This document shows positions 2,295 to 16,628 of a stretch of DNA of 34,371 bases, in pieces; position 1 is the first letter of the stretch, and every line of letters begins with the position of its first letter. The DNA comes from Chloroflexota bacterium (lineage in GTDB: Bacteria; Chloroflexota; Limnocylindria; Limnocylindrales; CSP1-4). The translations under genes and the position numbers were made by a program. Location of the stretch: positions 1 to 34,371 of the forward strand of contig JANYJG010000124.1 in assembly GCA_025358515.1 (NCBI GenBank), written 5' to 3'. The notes beneath the pieces are model-generated. The model was not told where the DNA came from. It saw nothing but the letters and a program-made list of their open reading frames with translations, and did no database searches.

Positions 2295-2541
2295 AGGCTA
2301 CGCGTCCCAAAGCCGCAGCCTCGAGGCCGATGGTTCTGCCGCGCCGGATCTTGCTTGCGCAGGCCGCTTTGCCGGCTGTACGGACGCGCGCACTCGAACG
2401 GCGGCGTGTCTGATCCCTCCATCGATTGTCGTGGCCCGAAGAGGTGGCACGGCCACGTCTGTGGATCCAATCTCCAGGCAGATGTTCGCTCCGTCCACGC
2501 TATGGCAAACTGTGTGGGCAGTCAGCGACGTAGAGGTGCCC

Positions 2542-3156
2542 ATGACCCAAACCAGTGGGACGCATGAAGGCGAGTTGGATGACGCGACGCTGGTCCGCCG
2601 GGTGCAGGAGCGGGATGAACGAGCCATCGAAGAACTCGTCCGGCGTTACGACGCACCGCTTTTCTCGTTTGCCTACCGGCTCGTGGGCAGGGATGACTTC
2701 GCCCAGGACGTTGTGCAGGAGGTCTTTCTGACGCTCTGGCGCGACGCGATTCGGTACGACCCAACGCGCGGTGCCGTCTCGAGCTGGCTCCTGACGATGA
2801 CTCGCTACAAGGCGATTGATCTCGTGCGCCGCGAAACGGGACCGCGCCGCAGAACCGTCGACGCGGATCTGTCTCTCGAGCGGTCCGAAATGGATGTTCA
2901 TGAGGAGGCGTGGCTGAACGCGCGACGAGCGAGAGTGCGTGCCGCGCTGGACGAGTTGACCGAGGCTCAGCGAGAGGCGGTCACGCTGGCGTTCTTCGAC
3001 GGCCTCACGCATCCTGAGGTCGCGGAGGCCCTGGCGCTTCCGCTCGGAACGGCCAAGACGAGGATCCGCGACGGTCTCCTACGGCTCCGTTTGATATTGG
3101 GGGACTCCCTGAACGACACGCCGGTCGGCTTTGGGCCGACGGGAGAGACCCGATGA
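2542..3156 (+). CDS. ECF-type RNA polymerase sigma factor (SigK/RpoE-like)
   Basis: The 204-residue protein has sigma region 2 at about residues 30-97 (AIEELVRRYDAPLFSFAYRL, then DFAQDVVQEVFLTLWR and SWLLTMTRYKAIDLVRR) and region 4 at about 133-185 (LDELTEAQREAVTLAFFDGL, then EVAEALALPLGTAKTRIRDG). It lacks regions 1 and 3, as ECF sigmas do. The ATG at 2542 has AGAGG at 2532-2536. Its last codon overlaps the start of the anti-sigma gene (ATGA at 3153-3156), so the two are translationally coupled. Pairing with an RskA-type anti-sigma is typical of SigK/ECF19-like systems, which respond to redox or envelope signals. The DUF4397 gene downstream is a plausible target by analogy with other sigK loci, but that is inference. 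Confidence 0.92.
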   Translation: MTQTSGTHEGELDDATLVRRVQERDERAIEELVRRYDAPLFSFAYRLVGRDDFAQDVVQEVFLTLWRDAIRYDPTRGAVSSWLLTMTRYKAIDLVRRETGPRRRTVDADLSLERSEMDVHEEAWLNARRARVRAALDELTEAQREAVTLAFFDGLTHPEVAEALALPLGTAKTRIRDGLLRLRLILGDSLNDTPVGFGPTGETR

Positions 3157-4031
3157 ACGATCACGAGCCGTTCCTCCAGCTCATCGCCGGACGCCAGTTG
3201 GGTGACCTCGACGCAGTCGAGGCGGCAGAGCTAGACGACCACCTCGCGACCTGCTCCACGTGCGCGTCGGGAGCCCGGTCCATCGCCGATGCTGCGGCTG
3301 AACTTGCCTTCGCGGCAGCCGTCCGCCGACCGCCCAAGGAACTGCGCCCCGCGATCATGGCTGCGATCCACGCCCTGGCCACTGCAGAGATGGCAAGCGT
3401 CCCGACCCAGACGGCGGCTGCGGCCCATGCTCGCGATATCGTGCCTTCGGCCCCGCGTCGCGAGCCGGCTCATGCGGCCGGTTCCGGACGACCGTCCGGT
3501 GGCCGGCTCGCCTGGCTCCTCGGCCCCCGCATGGGTTTGGCGGCCGCTTGTCTTGCGGGCGTCCTTGTCGTCACATCGATCGGGATAGGCCTCCGCGCCC
3601 TCGATCTCCAGTCGCAACTCGACGCCCGGAACCGGACGGTCACGGCCGCCCAGCAGCGCCTTGACACCGAGGCGGCCGCAATCGCGGTGGTGCTCGACCC
3701 ACATCATGTGGCTGCGACCCTCGCGGCGGAGCCGCTCGCACCCTCGGCGGTCGCCCAGGTCGTCTATCGACCCGGCTCCCACGAGGCATACCTCATCGCC
3801 AACAATCTCCCGGCGACGCCGGCCGGCATGGTCTACCAGCTATGGTATGCCGACGCCGCCGGGGCTCATCCGCTTGGCACCCTAGCCTTCGATGGCACCG
3901 GCACTCTCGTTGCGTCGTTCGGGGTAGATCTGGGCGGCAAGACCGCAGCAATGGTCACCCTCGAGCACACGGGTGGCTCGACCGGTGCGCCCGGCCCGCA
4001 GGTGGTCTTCGGCAGCCTTACAAAGGCATGA
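3153..4031 (+). CDS. RskA-type membrane anti-sigma factor
   Basis: The 292-residue protein begins with a cytoplasmic anti-sigma domain carrying the zinc-binding signature H30-x3-C34-x2-C37 (DDHLATCSTC). A variable Ala/Pro linker follows, then one transmembrane helix at about 127-148 (MGLAAACLAGVLVVTSIGIG). Outside lies a coiled stretch (LDLQSQLDARNRTVTAAQQR) and an RskA C-terminal domain at about 175-289, with YLIANNLP, GMVYQLWYAD and VTLEHTGGS. Such proteins hold the partner sigma at the membrane and release it on regulated proteolysis. It is expressed with the sigma gene through a four-base overlap. Start and stop are unambiguous. The nature of the signal sensed is not visible. Confidence 0.9.
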   Translation: MNDHEPFLQLIAGRQLGDLDAVEAAELDDHLATCSTCASGARSIADAAAELAFAAAVRRPPKELRPAIMAAIHALATAEMASVPTQTAAAAHARDIVPSAPRREPAHAAGSGRPSGGRLAWLLGPRMGLAAACLAGVLVVTSIGIGLRALDLQSQLDARNRTVTAAQQRLDTEAAAIAVVLDPHHVAATLAAEPLAPSAVAQVVYRPGSHEAYLIANNLPATPAGMVYQLWYADAAGAHPLGTLAFDGTGTLVASFGVDLGGKTAAMVTLEHTGGSTGAPGPQVVFGSLTKA

Positions 4032-4329
4032 GACCTGCTGGCCCGGCTGCCCGAGGACGGGGCGCCGCCCGCAACTAGCCCTCGTCGTTCCGGCGGCCGA
4101 CCGAGGCGCCGGCCCGCGTCTGATCTTCGGCAGCCTGCTTGCAGCCTGCCTGAGGACTGGCACGGACCGCCTGTCGGGACACATGCCTGGAATGCTGTCT
4201 CTTCCATCGCCCGGAGACGCGAACCTCCAATCCATCGGCCCGGACTTCGCGAAAGGCGGTTGTCAAGCAGCCCGGCCCACCAGAGGGCCAAGGCCCAACC
4301 ACCCAGACGACAACGGAGGAAACAGGCTC

Positions 4330-5226
4330 GTGAAGATCCGAATTACCCGACTGGCCGCCATCGGAGCCGCCGTCGCACTCGCCCTTACCGTAGTCGGCGC
4401 GGTCGCTGCGGCCGGCCCAGCCAAGCTCACGCTCGCTGTCGCCGACACGACCGCAGGACCCACGACGGCCACCGGCAACGCGCACGTCCGGGTCGTCCAC
4501 GGCTCGCCCGATGCGCCCAAGGTCGACGTCTATGCCGGCGCCACCCTCGCCACCGCGACGAAGGTCGCGGCTCTGTCAGGCCTCTCGTTCGGTCAAGTCT
4601 CGGCCTACGCCAACATCCCGGCCGGCTCATACGCGATCAAGGTCTGCGCCGCATCTGACAGCTCCGTCTGCCCCATCCAGGTTCCCTCGCTCAGCCTTGC
4701 TGCGGAGACGTACTACACGATCGGCGCCTCGAACCTGCTCGCCTCTATCAAGGCCACCGTGTTCACCGATACACCCGCGCCGTCCGGTGCCGGCGCACAG
4801 CTCCGTGTCTATCACCTGGCTGCCGACGCCCCAGCGGTCGACGTTCTGACCTCGACTGGCGCCGACATCAACCCGGCTCTCGATAACCTGTCCTACCCGA
4901 ATGCGACCGGCTACCTGACGCTGCCGGCAAACACCTACCAGGTCAAGGTCTGCGCCCACGCCGACCATGCTGTGTGCCCGATCGGGCCGGCGGCGCTCAC
5001 CGTCGCGGCCAACCACACCTACAGCATCTTCGCGATCGGTTCGCTCGCCGCGACCCTCGCAACGCCCACCCCCTCCACCATGACGCCTCCTCCGACCTCG
5101 ACGACCACCGACAACACCACGTCGGGCTCGTCCAGCTCCATGCTCGCTCTAGTACTCGCCGTCCTCGCCCTGTTCGTGGGCGCTGCCGGCGCCCTGCGCT
5201 TCGCCGCGGTCCGCAACCGCCGCTGA
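4330..5226 (+). CDS. Exported, C-terminally anchored protein with two DUF4397 domains
   Basis: Translation probably begins at the GTG at 4330, preceded by GGAGG at 4315-4319. The 298-residue product has a signal peptide (KIRITRL then a hydrophobic run to about residue 28). Two DUF4397 repeats follow at about 52-140 (HVRVVHGSPDAPKVDVYAG) and 157-240 (LRVYHLAADAPAVDVL). A Thr/Pro/Ser-rich spacer (244-270) leads to a transmembrane helix (271-291) and the basic tail RNRR. Each repeat holds a cysteine pair with identical spacing (C106/C114 and C208/C216), suggesting one disulfide loop per domain. DUF4397 is an extracellular beta-sandwich of unknown activity. Position directly after a sigma/anti-sigma pair suggests it belongs to that regulon. 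A strong terminator closes the unit. Confidence 0.85.
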   Translation: MKIRITRLAAIGAAVALALTVVGAVAAAGPAKLTLAVADTTAGPTTATGNAHVRVVHGSPDAPKVDVYAGATLATATKVAALSGLSFGQVSAYANIPAGSYAIKVCAASDSSVCPIQVPSLSLAAETYYTIGASNLLASIKATVFTDTPAPSGAGAQLRVYHLAADAPAVDVLTSTGADINPALDNLSYPNATGYLTLPANTYQVKVCAHADHAVCPIGPAALTVAANHTYSIFAIGSLAATLATPTPSTMTPPPTSTTTDNTTSGSSSSMLALVLAVLALFVGAAGALRFAAVRNRR

Positions 5227-5244
5227 GCCAGGCTCCTTCTTTTC

Positions 5245-5279
5245 AGAAAGACGGCCCGGGGCACCCGGGCCGTCTTTCT
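5245..5279 (+). terminator. Intrinsic terminator after the DUF4397 gene
   Basis: A perfect 16-base-pair stem (5245-5260 with 5264-5279) surrounds a three-base loop GCA; its core is GACGGCCCGGG/CCCGGGCCGTC. The descending arm ends in TCTTTCTT, a U-rich tract in RNA. It begins 18 bases after the DUF4397 stop codon and separates that unit from the heliorhodopsin gene. Confidence 0.92.
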
Positions 5280-5310
5280 TCCTAATCCGCGGTCAAACCG
5301 CGATCATCGA

Positions 5311-5370
5311 CGCCGTCACTGCCACCTGCGCACCGACTTTGGAGGTCAGATGTCCGCCGTCACTGCCACC
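5311..5370 (+). repeat. 16-bp direct repeat spanning the heliorhodopsin start
   Basis: CGCCGTCACTGCCACC occurs exactly at 5311-5326 in the leader and again at 5355-5370, codons 2-7 of the heliorhodopsin gene. The copies are 44 bp apart in phase. It may be a slippage or duplication scar, or a sequence read in the mRNA leader. A small inverted repeat (CGCGGT-CAA-ACCGCG, 5288-5302) lies just upstream. Confidence 0.7.
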
Positions 5371-6153
5371 GCTATCCCGGCCGATCGATCGGCCAACCTG
5401 TTCCGCTGGAATGCTGTCCTGTCAGTGCTCCATTTCGTCCAGGGCGCCACGATCCTGGCGCTCTCTTTCGCAAAGAACCCCGTGGTTACCTCGCCCGTCG
5501 TGAGCACGTATCTTCGCTTTGACCAGGCGACCCAACATCTCGTGACTGCCCAGCGTTCCATCTGGGACCTGCCGATCGGGCCGGCTGTCGCCCTGTTCTT
5601 CCTGATGAGCGCAGTCGCCCACTTCACCATGGCCTTCCCGTCGCGGCGCTGGTATGAGGCACACCTCGCTCGTGGCCAGAACCCGGTCCGCTGGATCGAG
5701 TACTCGTTCAGTTCGAGCGTGATGATCGTCGTAATCGCCGGGCTTGCCGGCGTCCAGGAGATCGGGAGCCTGATCGCCATTTTCGGTGTCAACTCGGCGA
5801 TGATCATGTTCGGCTGGAGCATGGAAATCGCCAATGAGGGGCGCGACCGGCCGCAGTGGCTGCACTACATCTTTGGCTGCATCGCCGGCGCCGTTCCGTG
5901 GCTGGTCATCAGCGTGACGATCCTGGTCTCGGCCACGGCGCCGGGCTCGGCTCAAATCCCCGCTTTCGTGATCGCGATCTTCGTGACCCTGTTCATCGGC
6001 TTCAATGTCTTCGCCGTAAACATGGTTCTGCAGTACCGGAAGATCGGCCGGTGGCGCGACTACCTCTACGGCGAGCGGGCCTACATGCTTTTCAGCCTGA
6101 TCGCCAAATCGCTCCTGGCCTGGCAGGTATTCTTCGGCACGCTGCGCCCGTAA
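5350..6153 (+). CDS. Heliorhodopsin
   Basis: The 267-residue protein has seven hydrophobic helices and the heliorhodopsin signature. TM7 reads LFSLIAKSLLAWQVFFGTL, placing the retinal Schiff-base lysine at K253 with the conserved serine four residues before it (S249). TM3 reads NPVRWIEYSFSSSVM, giving the counterion E117. H28 in TM1 and H91 in TM2 match the two conserved pocket histidines, corresponding to H23 and H80 of the founding heliorhodopsin 48C12 (K241, E107 and S237 are the other equivalents). Heliorhodopsins are inverted in the membrane, bind all-trans retinal and have slow photocycles without ion pumping; sensory or enzyme-regulating roles are proposed. GGAGGT at 5341-5346 supports the ATG at 5350. 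No retinal-synthesis gene (carotenoid oxygenase) is nearby. It stands alone, after a terminator. Confidence 0.95.
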   Translation: MSAVTATAIPADRSANLFRWNAVLSVLHFVQGATILALSFAKNPVVTSPVVSTYLRFDQATQHLVTAQRSIWDLPIGPAVALFFLMSAVAHFTMAFPSRRWYEAHLARGQNPVRWIEYSFSSSVMIVVIAGLAGVQEIGSLIAIFGVNSAMIMFGWSMEIANEGRDRPQWLHYIFGCIAGAVPWLVISVTILVSATAPGSAQIPAFVIAIFVTLFIGFNVFAVNMVLQYRKIGRWRDYLYGERAYMLFSLIAKSLLAWQVFFGTLRP

Positions 6154-6288
6154 GCCGCAACCGACGGAAGCGGGAATCGTGGTGCCCGCCGATTGGTGGA
6201 GCGACTTGCCGAGCGCGACCCGTCGGGCGAGCCGCCCAGCCTGCGCGCCGTGGGTCGTGAGGCGGGGTCAGCGCGCCGCGGCGCGGCC

Positions 6289-7305
6289 TCATGGTAGGAG
6301 CCTGACGGGGGCGCCAGTCTCTATGGATCGGTAGGCCGCCGCCACGATTTCGACTGCCCGCAGGCCATCGACTCCGGAGACCGCCGGTGCTCGCCCTTCG
6401 GCCACGACGGCCACGAACTCATCGAGCGTTCCCTGGTCCTCGTCGGGACCCCAGGACGGCCAGGCGACGCCGAACCCCGTCCCACCGTAAATTGCGAGCC
6501 GTTGCCGGAATGCATCCACCCGGAGGGTGCCGGCCGTACCGATCGCGTCGATGGCGAGTCCGCCCCACGTCGGATACGAGCGCGGTTTGCTCCAGCTGCA
6601 GTCGATCGTGGCGAACGCCCCTCTCGCGAAGCGGAGCATGACCAGCCCGCCAGTCTCCACCCGGTCGAACCGCTCCCGGAGGATTCGGTTAGCGACGGCG
6701 TAGACCTCGACGACTTCGTCCTGAAGGATCCATCGATAGAGGTCGGCGAGGTGCACGACGTGGTCCATGAGCGCCCCACCGCCCGATCGAGCGGGATCGA
6801 CGAACCAAGGCGCCAGCGTGTCGGGCATCCGACTCGAGTTGACGCCCTCCAGGCAGACGACGGAGCCGAGGGCGCCGGATCGCACCGCCGCTTCGAGGGA
6901 GCGAATGACCGGGCTGAAACGCATCGGGAACGCAGTCATGAGACGAACTCCCGCCCGGTCGCAGGCCGCCACCATCGCCTCCGCGTCGGCAACGGTAACG
7001 GCAAGCGGCTTGTCGCACAGGACGTCGACGCCGGTGGCCGCGGCTCGCTCGGTGAGCTCGCGGTGGTCCGCATTCGTCGAGGCGATTACCACGCCATCCA
7101 CCATGCCCAGCAGATCCTCGACCAGCGGCACCGCCCGCGTTCCCGCGCGTTCTGCGGCTGCGCTCGCCCGCGCCTGATCCTCGTCCCAGATCCCGATCAG
7201 TTCGACGCCCGGCATCTGGCCAAGCAGCCGGATATACGAGGCTGCGTGCATGTGCTCCGTGGAAAGGACACCGATCCGGACGGGTCGTCGGGCCTGATCT
7301 GCCAT
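6289..7305 (-). CDS. Gfo/Idh/MocA-family NAD(P)-dependent oxidoreductase
   Basis: The 338-residue protein has an N-terminal Rossmann domain and the C-terminal alpha/beta domain of the family. The nucleotide loop is the variant GVLSTEHMHA, with histidines in place of the usual G-x-G-x-x-G, a form seen in one branch of this family. The catalytic lysine motif appears as DKP at residues 98-100 (usually EKP), and a conserved histidine lies in LMDHVVHLADLYRWI. Family members oxidise or reduce sugars, inositols and opine-type compounds. The ATG at 7305 overlaps the TGA of the preceding oxidoreductase (TGATG), so the two are coupled and may form a heteromer or act in sequence. It is the last gene of the minus-strand operon. 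The substrate is unknown. Confidence 0.88.
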   Translation of the reverse strand: MADQARRPVRIGVLSTEHMHAASYIRLLGQMPGVELIGIWDEDQARASAAAERAGTRAVPLVEDLLGMVDGVVIASTNADHRELTERAAATGVDVLCDKPLAVTVADAEAMVAACDRAGVRLMTAFPMRFSPVIRSLEAAVRSGALGSVVCLEGVNSSRMPDTLAPWFVDPARSGGGALMDHVVHLADLYRWILQDEVVEVYAVANRILRERFDRVETGGLVMLRFARGAFATIDCSWSKPRSYPTWGGLAIDAIGTAGTLRVDAFRQRLAIYGGTGFGVAWPSWGPDEDQGTLDEFVAVVAEGRAPAVSGVDGLRAVEIVAAAYRSIETGAPVRLLP

Positions 7306-8321
7306 CACGCGCCAACCGGAGCGTCGAGCCAGATCGCCCGCCCACCGCTGCGGGCCGACTCATCGGCCGCCAGGGCGAGCCGCAATGTTGCGAGCGCATC
7401 CGCGCCGTCGATCCTCGGCTGGACGCCCGCCACGATCGCTTGGGCGAATTCGGCGAGTTCGAGCCGGAACGGGTCGCCGTTGAGCACTAAGTCTGCGGGT
7501 GCGGCCGGGCCACCGCCCGTACCGCCGGAGGGCAGCGACCATTCGATGGGGGCCGTCCGGTCGGAGTCCTGCTCGATCAGGCCGTGTGAGCCGGCCAGCT
7601 CGAACGCGGTCCGGAACGCCGGCGGCGCGTATGCCCAGGAGGCTGAGACATGACTGATCGCACCCGATGCGTGCGTGAGGATCGCAACCGCGTGGTCGAT
7701 GCCGGCGTCCGGGCGCTCAAAGATCGCGGACCGGCAGGCCACGGAGACGACCTCCCCGGCCACCCAGCGGGCGTAGTCGAGGTCATGGATCATCAGGTCG
7801 AGAATGATGCCGCCAGATCTTGCATGGTCGAAGAACCAGTGATCCGGTGGCTGCTGAGGACGGCTGCTGGCTCGCGTCAGGCGAAGCACCGCGAGCTCAC
7901 CCACGGCCCCGGCGAGGACTGCTTGCCGGGCGGCCGCGTACTCCGGGAAGAAGCGCACGACATGGCCGACGAGCAGCCGGACGTCGGCGTCTTTCGCTGC
8001 TGCGATCATCGCCTCTCCGTCGGCGAGCGTCCGTGCCAGCGGTTTCTCGCAGATGACGTGGCGCCCGGCGCGGGCGGCGGCGAGTGCGATCGAAGCGTGG
8101 AGATGGGTCGGCGTGCAGATGTCCACGACGCACGTGGCGGCTAGGAGAGCCTCGATCGTCGGCGCGACCGTCGCACCGAGGCGCTCGGCGAGTGCAGAGG
8201 ACCGGGCTGGGTCCTCGTCGAAAACTACAACCTCGACCCCTTCTGCCCGCCACGCCGCGAGGTGCCTTTGTCCGATGAACCCGGTGCCGATCAGGCCGAC
8301 GCGCAGTCCGGTGCCGCTCAC
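7305..8321 (-). CDS. Gfo/Idh/MocA-family NAD(P)-dependent oxidoreductase
   Basis: The 338-residue protein shows the standard NAD(P) loop GLIGTGFIGQRH at residues 9-20 and the catalytic EKP motif at 92-94 (HVICEKPLA). The C-terminal domain has GHVVRFFPEY and a conserved histidine in LDLMIHDLDYARW. It starts with a GTG eight bases after the cutC stop and its own stop overlaps the next oxidoreductase. It is clearly diverged from that neighbour (different Rossmann loop and catalytic triad), so this is not a recent tandem duplication. Its association with an amino-acid importer and asparaginase suggests action on a sugar or sugar-amino-acid intermediate, but no substrate can be deduced. Confidence 0.9.
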   Translation of the reverse strand: MSGTGLRVGLIGTGFIGQRHLAAWRAEGVEVVVFDEDPARSSALAERLGATVAPTIEALLAATCVVDICTPTHLHASIALAAARAGRHVICEKPLARTLADGEAMIAAAKDADVRLLVGHVVRFFPEYAAARQAVLAGAVGELAVLRLTRASSRPQQPPDHWFFDHARSGGIILDLMIHDLDYARWVAGEVVSVACRSAIFERPDAGIDHAVAILTHASGAISHVSASWAYAPPAFRTAFELAGSHGLIEQDSDRTAPIEWSLPSGGTGGGPAAPADLVLNGDPFRLELAEFAQAIVAGVQPRIDGADALATLRLALAADESARSGGRAIWLDAPVGA

Positions 8322-15026: not shown

Positions 15027-15197
15027 CACACGGTGGACTTTTCCACAGTCCAGGGGCGGCATTCGGATCAGCATCCAGCCCTTAAGTCCGATAAGTGGAC
15101 AAGTAAGTGGCCCCGATCGCGAACAGGGCCCGCGCTCGGCTCAGATCATGCTGTGGACGCCCGTGGGAGAGTTGGATGGGCGAGTTACCATCGACAC

Positions 15198-16628
15198 ATG
15201 CACATCCTGATCGTCGGTGCCAGCGGATACATCGGCGGACGATTGGTGCCCCTCATCGCGCGCCGAGAGGCAGACCTGACGCTGGTCAGTCGCGATGCCG
15301 GTTCGCTCGCAGATCGTTTCCCGGGGCTGCGAGTCCTGAAGGCTGATCTTCTAGATGCGGGCAGTCTTGCACCGGCGGTCGAGGGGATCGATGTCGCCTA
15401 CTACCTTGCCCATTCGATGAGCGGCGGAGAGGCAGGGTTTGCGGAACGCGACCTGCGGGCGGCGCGGGCGTTTGCCTCCGCCGCAGCCGCCGCCGGGGTT
15501 CGACGCATCATCTACCTGGGCGGGCTCGGCGATGACACCAAGGATCTCTCGCACCACTTGTCCAGTCGCCACGAGGTCGGCGCGGAACTGGCTCGACACG
15601 GCGTCCCGGTGACCGAGTTTCGGGCGGCGGTCGTCATCGGCTCCGGCAGCGCATCTTTCGAGATCCTGCGCCACCTGACGGAGCGGCTGCCGGTGATGAT
15701 CACGCCGCGCTGGGTCGCAACTCGCTGCCAACCCATCGGAATCCGCGACGTCCTCTCCTACCTGGTCGCGGCCTTGGATCACCCGGAGGTGAAGGGGGTG
15801 GTCGAGATCGGCGGGCCGGACATCCTCTCGTACGGTCAGATGATGATCCGGTATGCCCACCTGCGCGGACTGCGGCGCCTCATGATTCCGGTCCCGGTGC
15901 TAACGCCCAGACTTAGCTCCTACTGGGTCAACCTGGTCTCACCAGTCCCGGCGAACATCGCCCGGCCGCTGATCGAGGGTCTTCGCAACGAGGTCGTCGT
16001 TCGCGACCCGGGGCCGGCTCGAGCATTCGGCATTACTCCCGGAAGGTACGACGATGCGCTGGCGCTGGCGATGGATCGGTCTGCCGGCAGTGAGGTTGAG
16101 TCAACCTGGTTCGACGCTTTGCGCGCCCACGATCGGCAAGGGCTCGCCACGGTGGAGTCGCGCGAAGGGATGATCATCGACCGCCGGGTGCGCCGAGTGG
16201 CGGCGACGCCCGAGCAGGTATTCGCCGCCGTCGAGCGAGTGGGCGGCGCCGCGGGGTGGCCTTATGCGAACTTCCTGTGGCGCGCTCGCGGACTTCTCGA
16301 CCGCATGGCTGGGGGCGTGGGCATGCGTCTGGGGCGCCGCGATCCGAGCCGGCTCCGCGTCGGCGATGCCCTCGATTTCTGGCGAGTGGAGAAGATCAGC
16401 CGGCCCAGTCTGCTGCGCCTGCGCGCCGAAATGAAGGTTCCCGGGAAGGCCTGGCTCCAGTTCGAGGTTAGCCCCGACGGCGCCGGCAGCCGGCTGACGC
16501 AGACGGCGTTCTTCGAACCGAAGGGCGTTCCCGGACTGGCCTACTGGTACTTGCTCTACCCGGCCCACGCCGCGATCTTCCGGGGCATGGTCAGAGTGCT
16601 GGCGAAACGAGCTGCGGGCGGGGAGTGA
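15198..16628 (+). CDS. NAD(P)-binding SDR-type protein fused to a DUF2867 domain
   Basis: The 476-residue protein has an atypical short-chain dehydrogenase domain in the first about 300 residues: the nucleotide loop VGASGYIGGRL (6-16), LKADLLDAGSL, and VAYYLAHSM. From about residue 320 a DUF2867 domain follows (IDRRVRRVAATPEQVFAAVE, GRRDPSRLRVGDALDFWRVE, FFEPKGVPGLAYWYLLYPAH). This two-domain layout is widespread in actinobacteria and related phyla. Its substrate is not established; the C-terminal domain resembles START/SRPBCC-type ligand binders. Translation starts at the ATG at 15198, where homology begins, although no clear Shine-Dalgarno sequence is present. It faces the lipid-kinase gene tail to tail. 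Confidence 0.88.
   Translation: MHILIVGASGYIGGRLVPLIARREADLTLVSRDAGSLADRFPGLRVLKADLLDAGSLAPAVEGIDVAYYLAHSMSGGEAGFAERDLRAARAFASAAAAAGVRRIIYLGGLGDDTKDLSHHLSSRHEVGAELARHGVPVTEFRAAVVIGSGSASFEILRHLTERLPVMITPRWVATRCQPIGIRDVLSYLVAALDHPEVKGVVEIGGPDILSYGQMMIRYAHLRGLRRLMIPVPVLTPRLSSYWVNLVSPVPANIARPLIEGLRNEVVVRDPGPARAFGITPGRYDDALALAMDRSAGSEVESTWFDALRAHDRQGLATVESREGMIIDRRVRRVAATPEQVFAAVERVGGAAGWPYANFLWRARGLLDRMAGGVGMRLGRRDPSRLRVGDALDFWRVEKISRPSLLRLRAEMKVPGKAWLQFEVSPDGAGSRLTQTAFFEPKGVPGLAYWYLLYPAHAAIFRGMVRVLAKRAAGGE

Follow-up and report, generated by a model that had tools for sequence, protein, structure and literature searches.

A conserved heliorhodopsin in a Chloroflexota genus without detected carotenoid genes, and a predicted CarH-type light neighborhood in related genera

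Gene neighbors are the main clue to the role of heliorhodopsins (HeRs). Members of this family have been linked to two-component systems and oxidative stress by Bulzu and co-workers (PMC8612252), and HeR operons were sorted by Cho and co-workers into ten groups, among them MerR, photolyase, glutamine synthetase and SDR (PMC11109279). The 34,371-nucleotide stretch of Chloroflexota DNA analyzed here (contig JANYJG010000124.1, hereafter the window) carries a HeR gene in a different setting, because it lies on the same strand as, and downstream of, genes for an ECF sigma factor, an RskA-like anti-sigma factor and a DUF4397 protein, all three of which had been recognized in a first-pass annotation and are confirmed by Pfam (Table 1). 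This arrangement raises the question of whether the protein is a functional light receptor, where its retinal would come from, and whether its neighbors reveal what it does.

Table 1. Features of the HeR locus, in window coordinates.
Feature	Position	Strand	Basis or remark
ECF sigma factor	2542..3156	+	Pfam; judged a neighbor, not a partner
RskA-like anti-sigma factor (zf-HC2 + RskA_C)	3153..4031	+	Pfam; judged a neighbor, not a partner
DUF4397 leader/promoter region in common with G054	4153..4329	+	homology stops at 4153
DUF4397 protein, signal-like N-terminus, C-terminal hydrophobic anchor	4330..5226	+	Pfam; anchor read from the sequence
Strong hairpin (stem of 16 bp) separating DUF4397 from HeR, probable terminator	5245..5279	+	folding
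Short space for any HeR promoter (about 70 bases)	5280..5340	+	placement in the window is putative
Shine-Dalgarno GGAGG	5341..5345	+	conserved ahead of the HeR genes of the genus
HeR coding sequence, 267 aa	5350..6153	+	ATG at 5350, stop at 6153; Pfam, PDB, AlphaFold/Foldseek
Codon of counterion Glu117	5698-5700	+	
Codon of retinal Lys253	6106-6108	+	

The predicted protein matches the Pfam heliorhodopsin family (PF18761) over its full length (residues 17-265, 2e-91) with a score of 306 bits, compared to a family cut-off of 26.7 bits, and its closest relatives in a PDB sequence search are the heliorhodopsins TaHeR and 48C12 (1e-54 to 1e-57). An AlphaFold model computed from 35 aligned sequences has a mean pLDDT of 91.8 and exhibits the seven-helix fold of solved HeRs. 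Foldseek aligns this model to TaHeR and 48C12 with TM scores of 0.83-0.93, and to type-1 rhodopsins with scores of about 0.5-0.7. Glu107/Glu108 serves as the counterion in characterized HeRs (PMC9385722). When residues are numbered from the ATG at 5350, K253, S249, E117, H28 and H91 of the window protein align in the PDB search with K241, S237, E107, H23 and H80 of 48C12, precisely as had been proposed, placing a retinal Lys in helix G and a counterion Glu in helix C. We presume that the inverted topology of the family, with its cytoplasmic N-terminus, likewise applies to this protein, and the same may hold for the slow photocycle of HeRs, which pumps no ions. On these sequence and model comparisons, the gene is a real, intact and ordinary heliorhodopsin, and thus adds a member to an established family. 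The one correction to its earlier description concerns the start, which had been put at 5281. That position is in frame with the HeR gene but is not a start codon, and the true start at 5350 is directly preceded by GGAGG, the commonest upstream motif among the HeR genes of the genus.

The two structurally solved relatives are instructive for comparison. The window protein resembles 48C12 (PDB 6su3, 6uh3) in fold (TM about 0.9), in sequence (about 40% identity) and in the retinal Lys, the counterion Glu, both His residues and the Ser of the Schiff base region, whereas it is a few residues longer between helices A and B in the alignment and belongs to a Chloroflexota host without detected carotenoid genes. 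TaHeR, from Thermoplasmatales (PDB 6is6, 7u55), is the best fold match and has the same retinal site at about 40% identity, but is archaeal.

Conservation of the gene is equally evident. A class-wide search, conducted on genomes that are incomplete drafts (the host assembly spans 2.78 Mb and is 93% complete), detected HeR in 65 of 177 genomes, including 18 of the 21 from the genus of the window. Omega values range from 0.08 to 0.15 between the window HeR and its sisters, with a median of 0.11 over 120 pairs, and purifying selection evidently keeps HeR in the genus. Residues H28, H91, E117, S121, S249, K253 and W258 are invariant across the intact HeRs of the class. The sole entry without the Lys (L200, in genome G063) matches HeR over a short stretch only, and looks like a fragment.

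The position of the gene behind the hairpin agrees with its earlier description as a stand-alone gene separated from the upstream unit by a terminator. The hairpin has a folding energy of -34.6 kcal/mol (z = -6.2), and a GC-rich inverted repeat occupies the same gap between DUF4397 and HeR in G054, a member of the genus. The window hairpin is a probable terminator, but it was not flagged by a simple terminator scan because its T tail sits inside the stem. In sister genomes a motif resembling a promoter, CTGGACA-N15-GTATCGTT, precedes the HeR start codon by 38-56 nt in most cases, and this motif scored a log-likelihood of 169 versus 129-138 in shuffles when the Shine-Dalgarno part was cut off. 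The window matches it poorly, with a -10-like GATCAT about 40 nt before the ATG, and a sigma-70 consensus scan of positions 2300-6400 returned no promoter. By analogy with the sister genomes, HeR likely has its own promoter in the window, although the weak match makes read-through from DUF4397 possible. Given the upstream hairpin and the genus-wide motif, HeR is probably monocistronic.

How the protein would obtain its chromophore is less straightforward. No retinal-pathway gene was recognized in the window from the open reading frame lists and from Pfam searches of some of the frames, as had been noted before, and the genome-level search that was then suggested leads to the same outcome. No RPE65-type carotenoid oxygenase scored above the cut-off in the 21 genus genomes, and phytoene synthase was detected in none of them (the host genome and 20 mates). 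The phytoene synthase search is effective, giving positives for further genera of this family as well as for seven of 14 control genomes. Across the class, phytoene synthase went undetected in 43 of the 65 genomes that carry HeR. A search for Blh (PF15461) gave no match in the 177 genomes of the class, in 10 selected HeR hosts or in 61 genomes of another order, but was silent in every control too, and so we relied on phytoene synthase and concluded nothing from Blh. By the phytoene synthase search, the genus seems unable to make the carotenoid precursor, and retinal probably comes from outside the cell; scavenging is the simplest explanation. Searches of the same 21 genomes also detected no type-1 rhodopsin and no photolyase.

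Two further observations concern the physiology of HeR hosts in the class. Most of the freshwater-type genomes G107-G125, which are about 1.1 Mb in size, hold a type-1 rhodopsin, a heliorhodopsin and phytoene synthase together (with no match in the uninformative Blh search). In four genus mates (L040, L043, L046, L054), genes that by eye resemble NADH-dependent iron hydrogenase adjoin HeR, suggesting anaerobic hosts.

A distinct kind of neighbor emerges in other genera of the class. In nine genomes from four genera, a gene with MerR and B12-binding domains is the immediate neighbor of HeR or is found within one or two genes of it, as a rule in divergent orientation. The encoded protein matches CarH photoreceptor structures in the PDB (1.5e-27), and most copies that could be read through retain the Wx9EH motif and the ligand His. 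Their promoters are similarly suggestive, in that 46 ACA pairs at 11-bp spacing occur in 23 upstream regions compared to 1.4 in shuffles. These direct repeats fit the published CarH operator unit nnnnTnnACAn, which overlaps the -35 element (PMC9304148). Known CarH (PDB 5c8d; PMC9304148) controls carotenoid genes, whereas the neighborhoods of the CarH-like gene in these relatives comprise HeR and, often, a secreted fasciclin-like or DUF4397 protein, an SRPBCC-epimerase, photolyase and glutamine synthetase. DUF4397 adjoins the CarH-like gene in G094, G103, G062, G096 and G092, and either adjoins HeR or lies close to it in G094, G054 and the window genome. In L071 and L073 (genomes G005 and G004), HeR is the first gene divergent from the CarH-like gene, and CarH-type repeats lie some 160 bp ahead of the HeR match; this is the cleanest case of a predicted B12- and light-controlled HeR. 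A related arrangement is found in L203, L207 and L209 (G166, G170 and G169). There the CarH-like gene and an ECF sigma gene point away from each other across a set of CarH-type repeats, which recalls a sigma factor induced by light.

The window HeR itself does not fall in a predicted regulon of this type. No CarH-like ortholog was found in the host genome, and within the genus one was found only in G055, on a different contig from HeR; nor are there CarH-type repeats upstream of the window ECF, DUF4397 or HeR genes. Elsewhere in the window, an NAD-epimerase fused to DUF2867/Polyketide_cyc2 (15033-16628, plus strand) is similar in domain type to the SRPBCC-epimerase encoded in the CarH-linked operons, with the domain order reversed.

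Taken together, the account that we favor, and consider somewhat more likely than not, is that the window encodes a canonical retinal-binding HeR, probably transcribed alone, that acts most likely as a light-dependent regulator. Retinal would be held on Lys253 with Glu117 as the counterion, and would most likely be taken by the host from its surroundings. Light would isomerize the retinal, and the ensuing slow photocycle would alter the protein on its cytoplasmic side and thereby the activity of a partner encoded elsewhere. The ECF-RskA unit would be unrelated, and DUF4397 and HeR would be remnants of a light-responsive neighborhood over which related genera keep a CarH-like, B12-based photoreceptor. 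Loss of this regulator from most of the genus would have left HeR an orphan. A bolder evolutionary version carries rather less than even confidence. It holds that HeR belongs across the class to a CarH regulon together with DUF4397 or fasciclin surface proteins, the SRPBCC-epimerase and photolyase, and that in the genus of the window HeR and DUF4397 outlived the regulator, leaving HeR as the only light-related receptor detected and dependent on retinal from other organisms.

Several competing accounts were weighed against this one. One is that the genus keeps a retinal-free apoprotein for some other role, for example as a membrane protein that binds lipids or small molecules. The failure to detect a carotenoid or retinal pathway, photolyase or any other rhodopsin in the genus would fit, as would the source of its nearest named relatives, which are metagenome-assembled genomes called "Chloroflexi bacterium isolate fen_..." that, to judge from these names, come from peat fen, some of them probably from dark layers. 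Such a role is nonetheless unlikely, since Lys253, Glu117 and the majority of the residues lining the pocket do not vary within the genus or the class, which is hard to explain without a Schiff base. The opposite solution, that the host makes retinal by an unrecognized route and HeR is self-sufficient, has a precedent in Aurantimicrobium minutum, which makes retinal without any known gene for it (PMC7734400), and such a route is therefore conceivable here. We consider it improbable, because phytoene synthase is missing from every genus genome, though further genera of that family do have it. A third account, in which light acts through HeR to switch a metabolic or repair enzyme encoded close by, draws on the glutamine synthetase (PMC9529153) and photolyase (PMC9769723) partners described in other bacteria. 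Within the class, glutamine synthetase adjoins HeR or lies a few kb away in four genomes of one genus (g25) and in G156, and photolyase occurs in the HeR neighborhoods of G100 and G094. Neither enzyme gene is found beside HeR in the window or at the sister loci, and photolyase is undetected in the whole genus, leaving this as the least probable of the accounts considered.

The remaining alternative is the one that the locus itself invites, namely that HeR is functionally tied to the ECF-RskA-DUF4397 set and serves an envelope-stress response, for instance by feeding a light signal into it or by being among the genes that the sigma factor controls. In its favor, the genes are adjacent on one strand, and a DUF4397 ortholog that is 78-84% identical lies directly upstream of HeR in G054 as well. 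In addition, an ECF gene whose product is 57% identical is convergent to a DUF4397 gene in G020 (L184), and the three genomes in which a CarH-like gene is divergent from an ECF gene (all from family f5) could be read in the same way. However, when 60 class HeR loci were searched with the window proteins, none of the ten further loci of the genus whose upstream sequence reaches at least 6 kb carried an ECF, RskA or DUF4397 gene like those of the window, and ECF-RskA adjoined HeR in no other class genome examined. RskA orthologs (at least 40% identity) in nine other genomes are never near HeR. Moreover, the DUF4397-hairpin-HeR block in common with G054 begins before DUF4397, beyond which G054 carries a divergent SRPBCC-epimerase gene, and so ECF-RskA falls outside the block; the hairpin, too, stands between DUF4397 and HeR. 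From these comparisons the ECF-RskA unit looks like an incidental neighbor, and we regard an envelope-stress connection as improbable. The earlier suggestion that co-occurrence of HeR with this set would be a new clue to function thus fails for the set as a whole. It survives in part for DUF4397, which is rare (20 of 177 genomes, and within the genus confined to the window genome and G054) and is recurrently linked to HeR or to the CarH-like regulator, which is a different clue from the one proposed. On a DUF4397 tree, the window copy falls in an 11-member clade with seven light-linked copies. The tree does not support a single group of light-linked copies, because the clustering of linkage lacks significance, with values as low in 198 of 500 shuffles. 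Separately, in another genus an RskA ortholog (L230, G029:C66, 4867-5892) lies about 1.5 kb from phytoene synthase (7412-8182) and from what is probably crtI, a hint that ECF-RskA units of this type could have some connection to carotenoid genes there.

Some of these neighbors have been encountered before. Like the HeRs with published operon partners, which also include the OmrDE transporter and MerR/SDR groups (PMC11109279), class relatives of the window HeR have MerR, photolyase and glutamine synthetase neighbors, whereas the window HeR has none of these. Because a MerR group is among those published, the MerR-HeR link is known. What the accessible text of that report does not contain is the B12/CarH identity of the MerR neighbor, its operator repeats, and the link to DUF4397, which is not among the ten groups as described there. 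Searches of the accessible full-text literature that combined heliorhodopsin with CarH or with DUF4397 found no paper. At many of the HeR loci of another genus (f2/g28, among L074-L088), a tryptophan 2,3-dioxygenase match lies just downstream of HeR, and TauE/SafE-like or peptide ABC transporter genes were seen by eye upstream.

For the family, the failure of the ECF-RskA-DUF4397 set as a clue removes a false lead, and our survey offers two others in its place. One is a genus that is apparently unable to make carotenoids, having no detected genes for them, and yet keeps its HeR fully conserved, and in which the scavenging of retinal by HeR hosts can be tested directly. The other is the possible control of HeR by CarH operators in relatives, several of which have HeR directly under a predicted operator, such that HeR expression in these organisms should depend on both light and vitamin B12.
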